Shown: positions 15,024 through 59,400 of the stretch, one piece after another | Position numbering within the stretch: position 1 is the first letter of the stretch | Layout of the letters: each line of letters starts with the position of its first letter | Origin: a virus | Virus record (IMG/VR): IMGVR_UViG_3300032282_005937 | Location: 1 to 64,000 of that record | Length of the DNA: 64,000 bases | Strand: one strand, 5' to 3' | The notes under the pieces: generated by a model | What the model was told of the DNA's origin: nothing | The model's database searches: none | The model's input: only the letters and a program-made list of their open reading frames with translations | Position numbers and translations under genes: made by a program

Positions 15024-15028
15024 AAGCA

Positions 15029-15320
15029 ACTGCGTTAACAATTCAAGCATACGGTTCTTCCGCAGTTTTTATACCGAAATGAATCACATCACCAGGGGAT
15101 AACCCCAAGGATTGCCAGAGAGTAGCCAAACTCTCAACAGGGTGGCACGAAATAGTTTAGAAAGATTATTATACTAGAATTTGAGTGACCACTTCTCATA
15201 CTAGACCTGATACTTTACAAGTACCTTCTTTCTAATGTCCTATTTGGTCAAAATTTTATAACAAACTGCTAGTTCTAGGAACTTGCTGGTAGTAGTACTA
15301 TCAGGGAGAAGAAGTGGCCT
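15029..15320 (+). ncRNA. candidate structured non-coding RNA in a 300-base gene-free stretch
   Basis: No coding frame of useful length occurs between 15024 and 15325, and base composition is visibly richer in G+C than around it. Paired elements: AACTGCG (15029-15035) with CGCAGTT (15061-15067) followed by T's; GGGG/CCCC at 15095-15106 with a 4-base loop; GAGAGT/ACTCTC at 15118-15135, enclosed by GCCA/TGGC (15114-15117 with 15143-15146); CCTGATA (15206-15212) with TATCAGG (15299-15305), nested inside GACCACTTCT (15187-15196) with AGAAGTGGCC (15310-15319, one mismatch); and AGTTC/GAACT (15271-15283). The nested long-range helices argue for a real fold. Strand is chosen from the T-run after the first stem and is uncertain. 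It matches no RNA class I know. Confidence 0.5.
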
Positions 15321-15325
15321 ATTGA

Positions 15326-17336: not shown

Positions 17337-17931
17337 AAAAAAATGGATATATATAGGACCACCAAAAACTGGAAGTACAGCTTTGTCGTATGTTTTAACA
17401 GATGGAAAATACAACAAAAATGATTTTTTTGAAAATTTAAATGTTAATTTTGAAGGCACAGAAATAAATGGTCAACATACACCTTGGCCTCCGAAAAAAC
17501 TGAGTTCTAAATATAATGATTATTATGTTTTTATAAGTGTAAGAAATCCTTTTTCTAGGATTGTTTCTCTTTACAATCATTGGAAATATGGGGAAAATTA
17601 CGAAAATGAATTATTTTTTAAAGAAAAAACACTTGAAGAATTTATGCATCTTGTTTTAAATAAAAATCTTTGTAATAATGGTTTTTTTGATATTACAATA
17701 ACAAATTGGGTTGCTAGATATGATTTTTTTATAAAACAAGAAAACTTAGAAAATGATTTAAAGATGCTGAATATTCACTCTATCGATTTTAATGTTCCAG
17801 TAATAAATGAGAAAATAGGATCGACAAAGCATTGGAAAGAAGAACATAATAAAAAAACAATTGAAATGACAATTGAATGGGCAGAAAAAGACTTTTATAA
17901 TTTTCAATACAGTAAGGACATTAATGCTTAA
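17320..17931 (+). CDS. sulfotransferase family protein
   Basis: 203 residues. The 5'-phosphosulfate loop is IYIGPPKTGSTALSYVL (about residues 10-26) and the 3'-phosphate motif is ISVRNPFSRIVSLYNHW. These bind PAPS. The family moves sulfate onto hydroxyl or amino groups of carbohydrates. No signal peptide or membrane segment, so it acts in the cytoplasm of the infected cell. Downstream of a GT4 gene, it most likely sulfates the glycan. Sulfated polysaccharides and sulfatases are prominent in Planctomycetes, which fits the proposed host. Confidence 0.85.
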   Translation: MIINNKKKWIYIGPPKTGSTALSYVLTDGKYNKNDFFENLNVNFEGTEINGQHTPWPPKKLSSKYNDYYVFISVRNPFSRIVSLYNHWKYGENYENELFFKEKTLEEFMHLVLNKNLCNNGFFDITITNWVARYDFFIKQENLENDLKMLNIHSIDFNVPVINEKIGSTKHWKEEHNKKTIEMTIEWAEKDFYNFQYSKDINA

Positions 17932-18640
17932 GTATTTTCTTGGTTTTTTTGGTTCTGATCGTTCTGGTAAATGGTGGACTGTTCGCTGCGAACACATTGA
18001 AGATAATCCATCATGTATAGGTTGTGGCACAAAAAAAGAGGTTCAAGCTCATCATATAATACCAGTTAGTGTTGATTCATCTAAAGAGTTATGTAGAAAC
18101 AACTTATGTACTCTTTGCAAACATTGTCATTTTGTTTTTGGGCACTTGCACAACTATAAAAATTACAATCCAGAAGTAATTAGGGATTGCCAAGAGCATT
18201 ACAAAAGAGTAAAACAATTTAGAGTTAAGACTTTTCAAAGACCTATTTCTTTATGGAGGACTATTATGGCTAAGTTTTTTGGTTCTATTGCTTTGGTTTT
18301 TTTAGGTTTTTCAATTTATGTTAGTCATATGTATGTGGTAGAGACTAATAAAAATATAACAGTTAAAGAACTTTTTTATGCTGAAAACAGGCTCTTAAAG
18401 GATGAGATTTATGCAGAGAGAAACAAACCAACTTATGAAAATGGCTATAGAGATGCTATTTTAAGGGCTGGTTCACCAACTGGTTCTGGCTCATATCGTG
18501 ATGGTTGGGAGGCTTGTGCAAAGCTTTATGCAGATGGTTCATGGACAAGTGGATATCATACTGCACTAGAACAATTTGGATGGAAGAATGAATCAACAGC
18601 ATTCAAAAACTCAAATCCTCAAGCTATTTCTATGAAATAA
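17924..18640 (+). CDS. HNH endonuclease continuing into a membrane-protein domain
   Basis: 238 residues. Residues 1-105 form an HNH nuclease with zinc Cys pairs: CIGC (31-34), AHHIIP (His43-His44), an RNNLCTLCKHCHF block (Asn59 and Asn60, Cys65, Cys68, His69) and GHLHNYKNYNP. Residues 119-138 are a hydrophobic membrane segment (FGSIALVFLGFSIYVSHMYV), followed by a Gly/Tyr-rich tail with ENGYRDAI and SGSYRDGWEACAK repeats. A GGAGGA box with an in-frame ATG at 18266 (residue 115) marks a likely second translation start, so two products may come from one frame. This may be a fusion or a lost stop codon. Confidence 0.75.
   Translation: MLKYFLGFFGSDRSGKWWTVRCEHIEDNPSCIGCGTKKEVQAHHIIPVSVDSSKELCRNNLCTLCKHCHFVFGHLHNYKNYNPEVIRDCQEHYKRVKQFRVKTFQRPISLWRTIMAKFFGSIALVFLGFSIYVSHMYVVETNKNITVKELFYAENRLLKDEIYAERNKPTYENGYRDAILRAGSPTGSGSYRDGWEACAKLYADGSWTSGYHTALEQFGWKNESTAFKNSNPQAISMK
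18254..18640 (+). other. internal translation start giving a 124-residue membrane protein
   Basis: TGGAGGA (18254-18260) lies five bases before an in-frame ATG (18266) inside the HNH reading frame. The product would begin MAKFFGSIALVFLGFSIYVS, a typical signal-anchor, with the remaining 100 residues outside or in the periplasm. In most phages the two parts would be separate genes. Confidence 0.55.
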
Positions 18641-18651
18641 TCTTTACTATT

Positions 18652-18684
18652 TTACCCTCATACTGTGTATTAGTATGGGGGTAA
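18652..18684 (+). promoter_or_regulatory. hairpin burying the ribosome binding site of an HNH gene, motif in loop
   Basis: Bases 18652-18664 pair with 18672-18684 in a 13-bp stem with a single T/G wobble and a 7-base loop, GTGTATT. The 3' arm contains the GGGGG box (18677-18681) for the ATG at 18687. The loop and following bases (TGTGTATTAGTAT) resemble the GGTGTATTTATA leader motif. T4 intron endonuclease genes use the same design: an RBS-hiding stem with a late promoter in its loop. There is no T run, so it is a poor terminator. Confidence 0.65.
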
Positions 18685-18686
18685 TT

Positions 18687-19061
18687 ATGAAAAAAAAATC
18701 GCACAACAGTAAGGCTTTTGGTGAAATTTCTGGAAAATATTGGTCTTCTTTAATAAAAAACGCAAAAAAAAGAAGTATAAAAGTAACTGCAACAATAGAA
18801 GAAGCTTGGGAAATATTTTTGAAACAGAATAGAAGATGTTTTTATACTGGTTTAAAAATAACTCATAAAAAGTATTTGAAAAGAATTAATAATAAAGACA
18901 TATATTCTTTAGGAACGGCATCGTTAGACAGAAAAAATAGTAACCTTAGTTACACTAAACAAAACATACAGTGGGTTCATAAAGATGTTAACTATATGAA
19001 AATGAGTTTAAACGAAAAGTATTTTATAAAACTTTGCAAGCTTATATCTAGGAGATTCTAA
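18687..19061 (+). CDS. HNH/endonuclease VII-like phage nuclease
   Basis: 124 residues. It carries RCFYTGLKI, later TASLDRKNSNLSYTKQNIQW and VHKDVNYMKM. This Cys...TASLDR-x-N-S...N-x-QWVH-x-D-x-N pattern is typical of free-standing HNH-type nucleases of phages. The Asp-Arg and the His-Lys-Asp-x-Asn supply the metal and catalytic residues. I chose ATG 18687; an in-frame ATG at 18675 lies in the hairpin stem. It probably acts as a homing nuclease on related phage DNA, and its translation seems controlled by the upstream hairpin. Confidence 0.75.
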   Translation: MKKKSHNSKAFGEISGKYWSSLIKNAKKRSIKVTATIEEAWEIFLKQNRRCFYTGLKITHKKYLKRINNKDIYSLGTASLDRKNSNLSYTKQNIQWVHKDVNYMKMSLNEKYFIKLCKLISRRF

Positions 19062-19543
19062 TGCCTTTAAAAAATTGTTCTGAAAATGGTAAAGATGGTT
19101 GGAAATGGGGCGATCAAGGTAAATGCTATCTTGGAAAAGATGCTAAAAAACAAGCTATCAGGCAAGGAATCTCTATTGAGGGTCCAGAAAAATTTGCTAA
19201 AATAATGAAGTCTCAATCTCATGAAGATCTTTATATGCAACTTTCAGAGAATGAAAAAGAATTAGCTAACTCACTTATTTCATTATCTCAAAAAGTTGGT
19301 CCACTTGATAAATCTGATGGTATTTGGGTTGGATATGAAAACGCAGAGAATAATCCTACTAAAAACATTGGTGTTAAATGTGGAAATTGTGCATTGCACA
19401 AATCAGAAAACGCATGTGCAATTATTGATCAACAAATAGAAATGAATGGAGTTTGTAGATTTGCCGTAATACCAGATGGTTATGTTAATGCTATTCAAGT
19501 AGAAAAGGACATAGAAGAATACTTTAATGAAAATAATAAATAG
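19061..19543 (+). CDS. conserved phage protein with Cys motifs
   Basis: 160 residues. The N-terminus (MPLKNCSENGKDGWKWGDQG, then KCY) resembles small phage proteins that precede structural or protease domains. The C-terminal third has GVKCGNCALHKSENACAIIDQ and NGVCRFAVIPDGYV, four spaced Cys that look like a metal or Fe-S site seen in phage structural or assembly proteins. Function not established. One base overlaps with the HNH gene's stop and 17 with the deformylase gene. Confidence 0.6.
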   Translation: MPLKNCSENGKDGWKWGDQGKCYLGKDAKKQAIRQGISIEGPEKFAKIMKSQSHEDLYMQLSENEKELANSLISLSQKVGPLDKSDGIWVGYENAENNPTKNIGVKCGNCALHKSENACAIIDQQIEMNGVCRFAVIPDGYVNAIQVEKDIEEYFNENNK

Positions 19544-20282: not shown

Positions 20283-20331
20283 AGGGGTATTTATACATGG
20301 GCTTTATCCTTTTTAAAGGAGGTATCCCATG
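20283..20331 (+). promoter_or_regulatory. leader motif and hairpin enclosing the start of a 57-residue gene
   Basis: AGGGGTATTTATA (20283-20295) matches the GGTGTATTTATA leader motif. Directly after it CATGGG (20296-20301) can pair perfectly with CCCATG (20326-20331), which includes the ATG at 20329. Inside, CCTTT (20308-20312) can pair with the AAAGG of the AAAGGAGG box (20315-20322). A transcript initiated just downstream of the motif would lose the 5' arm, freeing the start. Confidence 0.5.
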
Positions 20332-20502
20332 CAAACTTATTTCGAAGTTTGGGCAACAGAGCCTAATGGCAAAACAAGAATAAAAATAGCAGAGTACGAA
20401 GAAATTTATTGGCAAAGAGCAGAAAAAAAAGCTTTATCATTAGAGTTACAAGGATATACTAAGATAGTTGTTTTTGAAAAAATGAGGACTACAAACAAAT
20501 AA
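20329..20502 (+). CDS. small hypothetical protein
   Basis: 57 residues (MQTYFEVWATEPNG...KIVVFEKMRTTNK) with an excellent AAAGGAGG box six bases before the ATG. The pattern of strand, loop, helix (WQRAEKKALSLELQG) and strand suggests a small alpha/beta domain. It is preceded by its own leader motif and hairpin. Family unknown. Confidence 0.65.
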   Translation: MQTYFEVWATEPNGKTRIKIAEYEEIYWQRAEKKALSLELQGYTKIVVFEKMRTTNK

Positions 20503-27246: not shown

Positions 27247-28123
27247 AGCCACATATGGTCCAAAAGATGTAACAGAGCATATTAAAAATTCTTTTAAAAA
27301 TGAAAAATTAAATCTTTTTGTTTCTAATTCAATATTTGGTGATACGAATCATGGTGTATTAAAAAAATTAACTATTGAATTTGATGATGGTTCTATATTA
27401 AAAACTAACGAAAATGAATTTTTAATTTATCCAGAAATATTAAGCGAAAGAATTGGAATTTTTTACACAAACAATAATGATCAAAGAAAAGAAAAAGCAC
27501 TCCATGCTAGTTTAGTAAGTTTAAAAATTGCATCAAAAGAAATGAATAATATAGTTACATGTGTGTGGAACAGAATATCAGAAAATCCTTTTTTTGAAAT
27601 AATTTCTCAAGTTAAAAATGGCAATCATTTAAATCAAGTTTTGCAAATTTTACAATTGCTTTATTTTATTAGAAAAAATGCAAAAAATGTAAAATATGTA
27701 AGTTTTTTAGAACATGATTGTCTTTATCCAGAAGATTATTTTGAATATGATGACTTTGAATGCGACTCTATATCAAACACTAATTATATAGGATTATGTT
27801 CTTCTGGTTGGCAACCTAATCATGGTGCAGTAAGACCAACATCTCAGGTAACTATGAAATTCGATAGTGCTATTAAACATTTTGAAAACATATTTCCAAA
27901 TGCATTATTGGAAAATAGTGGCAGTTTAGAGCCTTGGTATTCAAAAGAAGCTTCTTTTACACCATTAAGCTGGAAAAACAAAGATTGGTTTTGTAAAAAT
28001 CCATCGGTTCACATAAATCACGGCTATGCATTCACATCGCATTTTGAAACTTTTCAAAAGGTTTTTTCTGAATCAAATGAATACTGGGGTGATTATTCAG
28101 AATATGCTTATCTTTTTTCTTAA
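27233..28123 (+). CDS. glycosyltransferase-like protein with N-terminal DUF3395-like domain
   Basis: 296 residues. Residues 3-68 (IVKATYGPKDVTEHIKN; LFVSNSIFGDTNHGVLKKLTI) look like the small beta domain DUF3395, known from DnaJC11 and lectin-like proteins. It begins with the typical A-T-Y-G...D-V-T and has the S-I-F-G-D turn. Residues 70-296 resemble a GT-A transferase: VKYVSFLEHDCLYPEDYFEY holds an acidic E-H-D in the DXD place, then YIGLCSSGWQPNHGAVRP and a late INHGYAFTSHF. This combination of a possible carbohydrate-binding module and a transferase is unusual. Confidence 0.6.
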   Translation: MKIVKATYGPKDVTEHIKNSFKNEKLNLFVSNSIFGDTNHGVLKKLTIEFDDGSILKTNENEFLIYPEILSERIGIFYTNNNDQRKEKALHASLVSLKIASKEMNNIVTCVWNRISENPFFEIISQVKNGNHLNQVLQILQLLYFIRKNAKNVKYVSFLEHDCLYPEDYFEYDDFECDSISNTNYIGLCSSGWQPNHGAVRPTSQVTMKFDSAIKHFENIFPNALLENSGSLEPWYSKEASFTPLSWKNKDWFCKNPSVHINHGYAFTSHFETFQKVFSESNEYWGDYSEYAYLFS

Positions 28124-28186
28124 TTTTTCTACAAAAAACATTTGATTAAAAGTCACAAAATAGTCTTGCCACAATAAAAAAAATAA

Positions 28187-28309
28187 GTAAGATTTTGATC
28201 TGTCTTACCTACAATTATGGGTGTATTTATTTCCGCTGGTAATCGCCAGTATTACATTCCTTTAGAGTTCCGCTTATCCTTGCGATAGCAGGGCAGATGG
28301 AGTTTTTTC
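28187..28309 (+). promoter_or_regulatory. structured leader of the ribonucleotide reductase gene
   Basis: The 186-base gap before nrdJ holds GTAAGA/TCTTAC (28187-28192 with 28203-28208), the motif GGGTGTATTTATT (28219-28231), CTGG/CCAG (28236-28249), and TATC/GATA with flanking GC pairs (28272-28289). The sequence TTCCGCT occurs twice, at 28231 and 28269. G+C content is above that of the flanks. I do not find the conserved boxes of the cobalamin riboswitch. Confidence 0.45.
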
Positions 28310-30601
28310 ATGTCTATTAAAGAATTGCAAAAATATACGGCTGTTTCCAAATACGCTAGATGGATTAAATCTGAAAAAAGAAGGGAAACTTGGGATGAAA
28401 GCGTACAAAGAATAAAAGATATGATGATAGAAGTTCATCCATCCTTGCGTAAAGATATTGAAGAACATTACGAAATGATTAGGGATCAAAAAATATTGGG
28501 TTCACAAAGAGCATTACAATTTGGCGGTAAGCCGATCATTAAGCATAACGCAAGAATATTTAATTGTTCTGCCAGTTATTGCGACAGATTACGATTTTTC
28601 CAAGAATGTTTTTACTTATTGCTTTGCGGTTCTGGAACTGGATTTAGTGTACAAAAACATCATGTTGAGTTGTTGCCAAAGTTTTCATCCACTAGATTAA
28701 ATCCAGAAACATGTTGTTATGAACATCACATATATAGGGTTGAAGATTCAATTGAGGGTTGGGCAAATGCTCTTGGGGTTCTTCTTTCTTCATATTTTGA
28801 AACTCCAATAAAAGAGTTTGAAAGATACAAAGATATTGCAGTTGGTTTTAGTTATGAAGACATAAGGGAAAAAGGTGCTCCTTTAAGTTGTGGTATAGGC
28901 AATGCTCCAGGTTATCAACCACTAGAAAAAGCCTTAGAAAAAACTAGAGAATTGCTTGATAGATGTATTGCAAATGGGCAGACACAATTAAGAACAATAG
29001 ATGCATTTGATATAGTTATGTTTGCTGCTGATGCTGTTATATCTGGCGGTGTTCGTAGATCTGCAACTATCGCTCTATTTTCTGCTGATGATGAATTAAT
29101 GATCAACGCAAAGACTGGCGATTGGTATTTTACTAATCCTCAAAGGGCTAGGGCAAATATATCTGCGTTACTTCACAGAAAAGACACTCCCAAAGAAGTG
29201 TTTGAAAATCTTTTTAAGGCCACTAAAGAATTTGGTGAACCAGGATTTTTCTTTGCTGATTATTATGACACTCTGTGCAATCCATGTTGTGAGATTTCAT
29301 GGATAACAAAACATTTTTATAAAAAAGATGATCCAAAATTAGCCAAAGCTTTGTCACTATACGAAGGACCAATAACAACAAAAGAGTCATGCAAAGACGA
29401 TATGCCAGAAGATGAAGTTGGTCTTTCTGGTTGGGGATTTTGCAATTTGTCAACAATTAATGGAAAAACAGTTACATCAGAACAAGACTTCTATGAAAGG
29501 TGTGCTGCTGCTGCCTTTATTGGTACATTACAAGCATCTTTTACCAATTTCCCATACTTGGGTCATGTTACAGAACTTATTGCTCGTAAAGAGGCATTAT
29601 TGGGCGTTTCAATCAATGGTATGCAACATCACCCTAAAATACTGTTAAACCCAACAATTCAACAAAATGGGGCTAAAATAGTTAAAGACACAAATAAAAA
29701 ATATGCAGAACTTCTAAACATAAGTCCTGCTGCAAGAACGACTTGCGTAAAACCAGAGGGTAATTCTGCTGCTTTGCTAGGTTCAGCTTCTGGTATTCAT
29801 CCAGATCATTCTAAAAGGTATTTTCGTATTGTGCAAGCTAATCAGATGGAATCTCCATATCAGCACTTTAAAAGCATTAACCCTCAAGCGTGTGAAGAAT
29901 CAGTATGGTCATCAAATAAAACAGATGATTGCATAAGGTTTTGTGTACAAAGTCAAGATGGAACAGTACTTAAGGAAGACATAGATGCTATATCTATGCT
30001 TGATGATGTTTTATCAACCTATAAAAATTGGGTTGTTGCTGGAAAAAATGAACATCTTTGTGTTAGAAAAGAGTTAAACCACAATGTATCTAATACAATA
30101 CATGTAAAAGATAATGAGTGGGATAAGGTAAAAGAGTACATTTATAATCATCGTGCAGAACTTGCTGGAATATCTCTTATAGCTTCAACTGGAGATAAAG
30201 ATTATAACCAAGCTCCATTTACGGCAGTTTATTCAATTGAAGAGCAAATAACCAATTGGGGTTTTGAAGCTACGGCTAAGGCTTATGAAACTTACCCAAA
30301 ATTTTCTGAATATAATTTTAATTCTTTATGGGATGCATGTTCATGTGTTCTTGGCTATTTTGAACCAAAAGACGATAAGCAAAAATCTTGGAAAACTATG
30401 GTGCAAAAATATGCAGATGAGCATTTTTCTTCTGATGTTAAATACGCTACTTATGCACTTAAAGATGCTTATAATTTAGATTTGTGGAACAAATTAATAA
30501 ACAATTATTCTGATGTTAATTATTTAAATGCTTTTGAAAATAGTGCTACAATAAACATTCAAGGAGAACTTGCTTGTGCTGGTGGAGCCTGTTTAATATA
30601 A
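28310..30601 (+). CDS. nrdJ: adenosylcobalamin-dependent (class II) ribonucleotide reductase
   Basis: 763 residues, full length for the monomeric ribonucleoside-triphosphate reductase type. Motifs: IFNCSASYCDRL, LCGSGTGFSV, VISGGVRRSATIALF, NPCCEI (thiyl region), GWGFCNLSTING, KPEGNSAALLGSASGIH, and a redox-active pair at the C-terminus, ACAGGACLI. It reduces NTPs to dNTPs using adenosylcobalamin and does not need oxygen or a second subunit. The host or environment must supply B12. The gene is preceded by a leader motif and structured RNA. Confidence 0.93.
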   Translation: MSIKELQKYTAVSKYARWIKSEKRRETWDESVQRIKDMMIEVHPSLRKDIEEHYEMIRDQKILGSQRALQFGGKPIIKHNARIFNCSASYCDRLRFFQECFYLLLCGSGTGFSVQKHHVELLPKFSSTRLNPETCCYEHHIYRVEDSIEGWANALGVLLSSYFETPIKEFERYKDIAVGFSYEDIREKGAPLSCGIGNAPGYQPLEKALEKTRELLDRCIANGQTQLRTIDAFDIVMFAADAVISGGVRRSATIALFSADDELMINAKTGDWYFTNPQRARANISALLHRKDTPKEVFENLFKATKEFGEPGFFFADYYDTLCNPCCEISWITKHFYKKDDPKLAKALSLYEGPITTKESCKDDMPEDEVGLSGWGFCNLSTINGKTVTSEQDFYERCAAAAFIGTLQASFTNFPYLGHVTELIARKEALLGVSINGMQHHPKILLNPTIQQNGAKIVKDTNKKYAELLNISPAARTTCVKPEGNSAALLGSASGIHPDHSKRYFRIVQANQMESPYQHFKSINPQACEESVWSSNKTDDCIRFCVQSQDGTVLKEDIDAISMLDDVLSTYKNWVVAGKNEHLCVRKELNHNVSNTIHVKDNEWDKVKEYIYNHRAELAGISLIASTGDKDYNQAPFTAVYSIEEQITNWGFEATAKAYETYPKFSEYNFNSLWDACSCVLGYFEPKDDKQKSWKTMVQKYADEHFSSDVKYATYALKDAYNLDLWNKLINNYSDVNYLNAFENSATINIQGELACAGGACLI

Positions 30602-58644: not shown

Positions 58645-58798
58645 TATCGAATCTATGACAATAGATGATATAAAAGAAGAACTCCTTTGGCTGAAGGGCT
58701 TTGATGCCGATTGGTCAAAGGAGCTTTATAATTTGCTTAAAAAAGAACTATCCGTTAGAGATATTCAAGCTCAATCCAAAGAGCGTACTGAGTCTTAG
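58631..58798 (+). CDS. small hypothetical protein
   Basis: 55 residues (MKCLNIESMTIDDIKEELLW...), helical and acidic. It starts inside the end of the zinc-ribbon gene and its last 44 bases overlap the convergent virion-protein gene. Similar small Trp-containing helical proteins are common in phages, but it has no assignment. Confidence 0.45.
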   Translation: MKCLNIESMTIDDIKEELLWLKGFDADWSKELYNLLKKELSVRDIQAQSKERTES

Positions 58799-59366
58799 AC
58801 CCAATCGTATCTGGACTAGCAGAAAGTGCCAAGTACCAATCATGTCTGCTATCAATAGTGTCAGAACCACTTGGGCTTAATCCTGATGTACCAGGAGAAT
58901 CTGCAAGAGTCATATAACCAGTTCCTGCTGGTGTTGACCAAGTATTGCTTCCAGATCCAATCAAACTTTCATTTGAAGCTGGATGAATTAGTTCTGCAAC
59001 TTTGGTAGTAACACCACTTGCTTCATTAGATATGCTTGACCTATCATAAATTCTAAGTTTTGTATTCTGAGTTTTTACCCCAGTAGAATGGGTAAATCTA
59101 ACATTTAAAGTAGCAAGACCATTTGCTATTGTTCGTAAGTGCCTTGCAGCACTACCGTTAGGGTATCCAGATGCGGTATTGTAATATTTTACATTTTTGG
59201 CTTTACCGCCATTTGTTGCACCTTGACTATCAGTTATATATGTATCATCTTGGTATTGCCCAACGGCAACAGATGATCCAAAACCACTAGATCCATAAAA
59301 GCCTATACCGCTAGATACAATGTTTTCAAAAGAAGCATCGCCAGCATAAAAGCTAATTGTAGCCAT
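58755..59366 (-). CDS. probable virion structural protein
   Basis: 203 residues, rich in Gly, Ser and Thr. ATISFYAGDASFENIVSSGI with GFYGSSGFGSSVAVGQYQDD and TYITDSQGATNGG resembles structural proteins of marine and freshwater myoviruses. The body is beta-rich and ends LSASPDTIGSKTQYALWIEL, a typical virion-protein C-terminus. No signal peptide. Likely a decoration, neck or tail component. GC content is higher than in the early genes, and the leader motif precedes it. Confidence 0.7.
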   Translation of the reverse strand: MATISFYAGDASFENIVSSGIGFYGSSGFGSSVAVGQYQDDTYITDSQGATNGGKAKNVKYYNTASGYPNGSAARHLRTIANGLATLNVRFTHSTGVKTQNTKLRIYDRSSISNEASGVTTKVAELIHPASNESLIGSGSNTWSTPAGTGYMTLADSPGTSGLSPSGSDTIDSRHDWYLALSASPDTIGSKTQYALWIELEYL

Positions 59367-59374
59367 ATTTTTTC

Positions 59375-59400
59375 TCCTATGTACATAATATTATACACCA
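59375..59400 (-). promoter_or_regulatory. leader motif and ribosome binding site of the virion gene
   Basis: Minus strand: TGGTGTATAATATTATG (59384-59400), then TAGGAG, then ATG at 59366. TGGTGTA matches the GGTGTATTTATA motif, and TATAAT within it is also a perfect -10 box. TGTA and TACA around it can pair. Confidence 0.5.

Follow-up and report, generated by a model that had tools for sequence, protein, structure and literature searches.

An RNA hairpin under selection hides the ribosome-binding site of an HNH nuclease gene in uncultured freshwater phages and may hold a late promoter core in its loop

The window analysed here, a stretch of 64,000 nucleotides, comes from an uncultured virus record of 70,880 bases, whose relatives reach 206-221 kb. 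Phages of this group carry class II ribonucleotide reductase, DnaB and DnaE-like polymerase genes as well as very large tail genes, and it is by our own reading of the sequences that we take the polymerase to be DnaE-like and the reductase to be of class II. The locus of interest is an operon around a short HNH endonuclease gene (Table 1), for which 29 close relatives were found. Matches to two phrog families mark its product as an HNH nuclease by sequence; a Pfam search of the gene gave no HNH match above the cut-off, and its match to PacI is weak (E 0.46). The relatives fall into five lineages, A to E, lineage A being the window and 27 relatives. In all lineages the operon order is an upstream HNH domain, a variable gene, the HNH gene, the 160-aa gene, peptide deformylase and further genes, so that the HNH gene occupies one syntenic place in all five. 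No empty site was found in any related genome read, and mobility, the mark of a homing endonuclease, was thus not observed; by analogy with T4 gene 49, the HNH gene could be a resident nuclease.

Table 1. Features of the HNH locus and of the proposed regulatory elements, in window coordinates.
Feature	Position	Strand	Basis or remark
Upstream ORF, HNH domain and C-terminal part	17873..18640	+	PF01844, E 5e-5; possible internal start 18266
RNA hairpin, 13-bp stem and 7-nt loop	18652..18684	+	Fold z, covariation, low divergence
Loop element GTGTAT, proposed core of internal late promoter	18665..18670	+	Invariant in four lineages; equals core of GGTGTA motif
Shine-Dalgarno GGGGG	18677..18681	+	In 3' arm; SD-zone pairing 1.00 in fold
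HNH endonuclease gene, 124 aa	18687..19061	+	phrog_3322 (endonuclease), E 8e-14; phrog_1035, E 1e-11
160-aa gene, own SD	19061..19543	+	Syntenic in all lineages
GGGGTATTTAT, late-motif variant	20284..20294	+	Before gene 20329; retained in lineages A and C
Second SD-hiding hairpin, ACATGGG ... AAAGGAGG ... CCCATG	20297..20331	+	Spans SD and start codon of gene 20329
57-aa gene, proposed to be under second-hairpin control	20329..20502	+	SD and start codon lie in covarying stem
Canonical GGTGTA motif, probable late element	59394..59399	-	Before gene 58755-59366, structural region; kept in orthologous leaders, eight genomes

The leader of the HNH gene folds into a long hairpin, the arms of which, TTACCCTCATACT (18652-18664) and AGTATGGGGGTAA (18672-18684), form 12 Watson-Crick pairs and one U·G pair around the loop GTGTATT (18665-18671). 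A 141-nt fold around it has a z score of -3.7, with 1 of 200 shuffles equally stable, and only five hairpins in the window record, this one included, have 10 bp or more with four or more G-C pairs. The Shine-Dalgarno (SD) sequence within the 3' arm lies 5 nt from the start codon at 18687. When 518 leaders from three related genomes are compared, two lineage-A HNH leaders rank 2 and 5 in stability, and with an SD-zone pairing of 1.00 they take ranks 1 and 2 among the stable leaders. An in-frame ATG inside the stem (18675) was considered as the HNH start and rejected, since it is not conserved and a 1-nt deletion in the relative L025 breaks the frame. No Rfam family scored above threshold. The hairpin is not a mobile repeat, as exact-pattern scans met a single copy in each contig, and every such contig bears the HNH gene.

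Within lineage A, all members have the same 27-nt hairpin core apart from a single C-to-T change, which preserves the pairing. Over 17 distinct ORFs, mean divergence is 0.44% in the core, compared with 25% at fourfold sites and 35% in a 16-nt flank. Lineages B, C and D, with HNH proteins about 65% identical to that of the window, have other stems of the same shape: CCCCUAGUAU/AUACUGGGGG in lineage B (L031), CCCCUAUUACU/AGUAAUGGGGG in lineage C (L041) and CCUCUAGUAU/AUACUAGGGG in lineage D (L099-L108), lineages B and C being one contig each and lineage D a set of near-identical contigs. Over the four lineages A to D, both partners have changed in 8 of the 13 stem pairs, while 96.6% of cells are paired. 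In 500 shuffles none of the covariation measures was equalled, and slid controls give at most three pairs in which both partners changed. The rows of this comparison were trimmed by hand around the loop, because MAFFT had misaligned the 3' arms of lineages B to D. The loop sequence GUGUAU is invariant in all four lineages. U·G pairs occur in every hairpin lineage at differing positions and would be A·C mismatches on the opposite strand, which fits a plus-strand RNA better than it fits a palindrome in the DNA or an antisense transcript. An AT-rich genome might by itself throw up an inverted repeat by chance, an explanation that is contradicted by this covariation and constraint and deserves practically no credence.

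The hairpin belongs to the HNH leader, since lineage D has a different gene directly upstream from that of lineage A and the hairpin is retained in both. In lineage E (L040/L097) the HNH gene has no hairpin, and its start overlaps the upstream stop codon. The hairpin is also absent from HNH relatives below 50% identity, and neither contig searches nor searches with the neighbouring gene yielded extra lineages that have it. A transcription terminator, or a stabiliser of the 3' end of the upstream gene, might be suspected from a stable G+C-rich stem right after a stop codon. However, neither function would lead one to expect a loop without variation or a 3' arm that contains an SD, and the U-run of a terminator is absent in lineages A, C and D, where the stem runs into the SD spacer and ATG (in the window it is followed by UAAUUAUG); we regard this explanation as very improbable.

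In folds, removal of the 5' arm abolishes the stem, the energies going from -20 to -1.3, from -21.5 to -2.0, from -23.2 to -1.4 and from -15.6 to -4.3 kcal/mol. Thus, as in hairpin-delayed genes of the T4 type, the ribosome-binding site (RBS) is paired in a stable stem on read-through RNA, as folds and covariation indicate, and is free in folds of RNA that lacks the 5' arm. The initial annotation had described a 13-bp hairpin with the SD of the HNH gene in its 3' arm, had proposed that it hides the RBS in read-through RNA, and had named a lack of compensatory substitutions in homologous loci as what would speak against it. The structure is confirmed, the compensatory changes exist, and three lines of evidence, namely the covariation, the wobble pairs that suit one strand only and the occluded SD, strongly support the hiding of the RBS. 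We conclude with great confidence that this is an SD-hiding RNA hairpin under selection.

What the loop does is a matter of the leader motifs of the phage group. Ten related genomes yielded two of them, CGAATA (motif 1) and TGGTGTA (motif 2), the GTGTA-containing motif being derived independently, with the hairpin leaders left out. In two of the genomes (G001 and G003), CGAATA occurs in 37 of 150 non-structural leaders and in 0 of 26 structural-region leaders, whereas GGTGTA occurs in 9 of 26 structural-region leaders and in 8 of 150 others (Fisher p = 1e-4). GGTGTA is orientation-specific, with 25 forward and 2 reverse occurrences in four genomes, and is retained at orthologous structural-region genes across genomes. 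From their distribution, GGTGTA/TGGTGTA is a probable late promoter element and CGAATA a candidate early one. In the window, CGAATA(A) stands in the leaders of 1564 and 6999, and many sites are present in G001 and G003; same-strand CGAATA sites lie 2-14 kb upstream in 7 of 10 genomes. Sigma-factor-like genes number two in G001 and two in G003, sigma-like proteins being encoded at L159:16793-17386 and L159:15721-16221, and a search for a single-subunit phage RNA polymerase gave no match, its control likewise matching nowhere. Two other candidates for a motif at the hairpin were dropped: CGAATA matches neither the loop nor the 3' arm, and the string TATTAGTATGGG, considered as a repeated window motif, has 59 matches against 66 expected.

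The loop, GTGTAT(T/A), is the core of the structural-gene motif without the strongly conserved G in front of it. At that position the four hairpin lineages have T, T, T and A, as opposed to a near-invariant G in the motif, and the loop scores only modestly against the position weight matrix (PWM), at 1.8e-3 to 8e-3 per site. From GTGTA to the SD the hairpins measure 12, 14, 14 and 15 nt, compared with 14-17 nt in ten short-leader motif-2 genes, and the sharp lower edge of this distance is expected if transcription starts just before the SD. By the spacing of the other motif-2 leaders, the late transcript would start at about 18676-18680. The 3' arm (GGGGTAATTAT) was also tried as a GGGGTA variant of the motif; it scores well in the window (about 4e-4 per site), is lost in L025 and in lineages B and C, and as a promoter would give a leaderless RNA. 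Of the leader motif that the initial annotation had seen in the loop and 3' arm, the GTGTA(T) core in the loop therefore stands, but its preceding G is missing and the 3'-arm match is not kept in other lineages. The late promoter that was proposed inside the loop fares similarly, having in its favour the structural-gene motif core, the SD distance and the parallel cases described below, and against it the one missing conserved base; we consider that the loop probably is such a promoter.

A hairpin that hides the RBS and has no promoter inside, leaving the nuclease permanently low or being opened by RNA processing or a translating ribosome, would be enough for the stem covariation and SD occlusion, and it would suit the stop codon of the upstream gene, which lies 11-17 nt 5' of the stem in all lineages. 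Since it leaves the invariant loop and the constant GTGTA-to-SD distance unexplained, we find it quite unlikely. Somewhat less unlikely, though still improbable, is a translational operator, at which translation would be shut off when a protein of the phage or the host, possibly the nuclease, attaches to the stem and the GUGUAU loop, the loop being kept for protein contact. T4 gp43 and the MS2 coat protein act in this way on operators in their own messages, and the present hairpin shares with their sites a variable stem and a conserved loop overlapping or adjoining the RBS. RNA hairpins bound by proteins typically combine, as here over the SD, a stem that varies with a loop that does not, and the late motif's near-invariant G is missing from this loop. 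On the other hand, and unlike the gp43 and MS2 operators, the loop here equals a putative promoter core, GTGTA, that is also found in leaders of genes without such hairpins, and the string GTGTATTTAATA recurs beside, not inside, another SD-hiding stem in lineages D and E.

That stem belongs to gene 20329, a member of the same operon, and it covaries over ten distinct leaders, with the compensatory changes AUGGG/CCCAU, AUAGG/CCUAU and AUAGCAG/CUGCUAU in relatives. In lineages D and E, GTGTATTTAATA replaces GGGGTATTTAT at the same place before the gene. The motif stands beside this stem and not in its loop, as would suit an element that acts in the DNA. Two unrelated nuclease genes of G003, an HNH_3 gene adjoining a tRNA-like stretch and a DUF559-type endonuclease gene, each have a predicted SD-hiding stem with the full GGTGTA inside, both cases coming from that one genome sequence; two other nuclease-like genes that were examined have no such device. 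The DUF559-type gene lies within a 'fractured gene' arrangement at 201-204 kb of G003 (L175:1161-4156): dnaE is split into two ORFs, the first ending and the second beginning with an intein half, and the endonuclease gene stands between the two. The G003 record (L165-L175, 206 kb) further contains near-duplicate genes, with two ribonucleotide reductases (39032 and 185155) and two DnaB, which suggests that assembly fused two related phages or that a large stretch was duplicated.

Reading the loop as an internal late promoter, we propose the following sequence of events. RNA derived from upstream by early or middle read-through, for which the upstream ORF would be the source, would carry both arms and form the 13-bp stem, burying the SD and so preventing synthesis of the nuclease. 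At a later stage, a late specificity factor, plausibly a sigma-like protein encoded by the phage, would let RNA polymerase start at GTGTAT in the loop. The late RNA would begin at or just before the SD, lack the 5' arm, fail to fold and be translated. From the gene family and from T4, the benefit may be that a DNA-cutting enzyme is kept silent early. The conserved stem, the SD occlusion, the invariant loop, the match to the structural-gene motif, the spacing and the parallel cases all support such a timing switch, with the HNH gene silent early and on late, as do the sigma-like genes and the same-strand CGAATA sites upstream; the missing G and modest score of the loop, and lineage E with its gene but no hairpin, tell against it. 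On balance we lean towards it, although promoter activity, late timing, sigma identity and benefit are parts that we infer.

Similar arrangements are known from T4 and its relatives. In T4 I-TevI, I-TevII, I-TevIII and segB and in Aeh1 mobE, the RBS is tied up in an RNA structure, and a late promoter is so placed that its own transcript is unable to form that structure (PMC2988022). Likewise, the T4 genes e, soc and 49 are resident late genes whose RBS or start codon is sequestered in early read-through RNA, and a short late RNA escapes (PMC3014915). As with I-TevI, segB and mobE, here a nuclease gene lies in a co-directional operon, its RBS is in a stable stem, and a putative promoter element is so placed that late RNA could not form the stem. 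Here, however, the element is a GTGTA core located in the loop and not TATAAATA, the start site is deduced from spacing, and the phages are unrelated and have sigma-like proteins of their own. The T4 late promoter TATAAATA is absent from all four hairpin lineages and is not enriched in leaders. Gene 20329 would be a resident gene of the e, soc and 49 kind, and the HNH gene may be another, with the difference that the promoter type and the phage group are not those of T4. Indeed, the best terminase match among isolated phages, to Bacillus Slash-like phages, has about 25% identity, so the group is not T4-like, and the view of the initial annotation that this is a phage very different from T4 holds.

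A T4-like trick thus seems to have arisen separately in uncultured freshwater phages. The principle of the RBS hairpin is already known from T4; what is new is its occurrence in unrelated phages with a promoter motif of their own, and we found no case of an RBS hairpin with an internal late promoter outside T4 relatives in searches of open-licence papers. A broader proposal, on which we are evenly divided, is that these freshwater phages independently built a general 'silent until late' device, in which TGGTGTA late promoters (-10-like), used with a phage-encoded sigma factor, lie inside RBS-hiding hairpins, and which would serve the resident gene 20329 and nucleases of three unrelated families, including the split-intein dnaE endonuclease. 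That this arrangement turns up at several unrelated nuclease genes, with another promoter motif and in phages that have sigma-like proteins of their own, suggests that nuclease delay by RNA structure is recurrent, and not a T4 peculiarity. For these uncultured freshwater phages, a large group, the analysis also yields candidate promoter motifs, one early and one late.

Other non-coding stretches of the window deserve mention. About 300 nt without an ORF (15024-15325, plus strand; also L109:651-945, L098:972-1270 and L097:1351-1650) keep their sequence between diverged relatives, for example at GTGGCACGAAAT and GAGTGACCACTTCTC, and their consensus structure has double changes in 8 of 48 pairs over four sequences. 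The region has no Rfam match, no tRNA and no tmRNA, and its single-sequence fold is not unusual (z -0.9); it is a candidate for a new structured non-coding RNA. The ribonucleotide reductase leader (28123-28310), which gave no match in an Rfam search, is strongly conserved in nine genomes, with GGTGTATTTAT followed by GCTGGTAATCGCCAG and further stems, and is possibly regulated. Finally, a perfect terminator-like hairpin, AATGTAAAAGGGGGGCTTTTGCCCCCTTTTTATATT, lies at 1817-1852 on the plus strand and is identical in the related genome G005.
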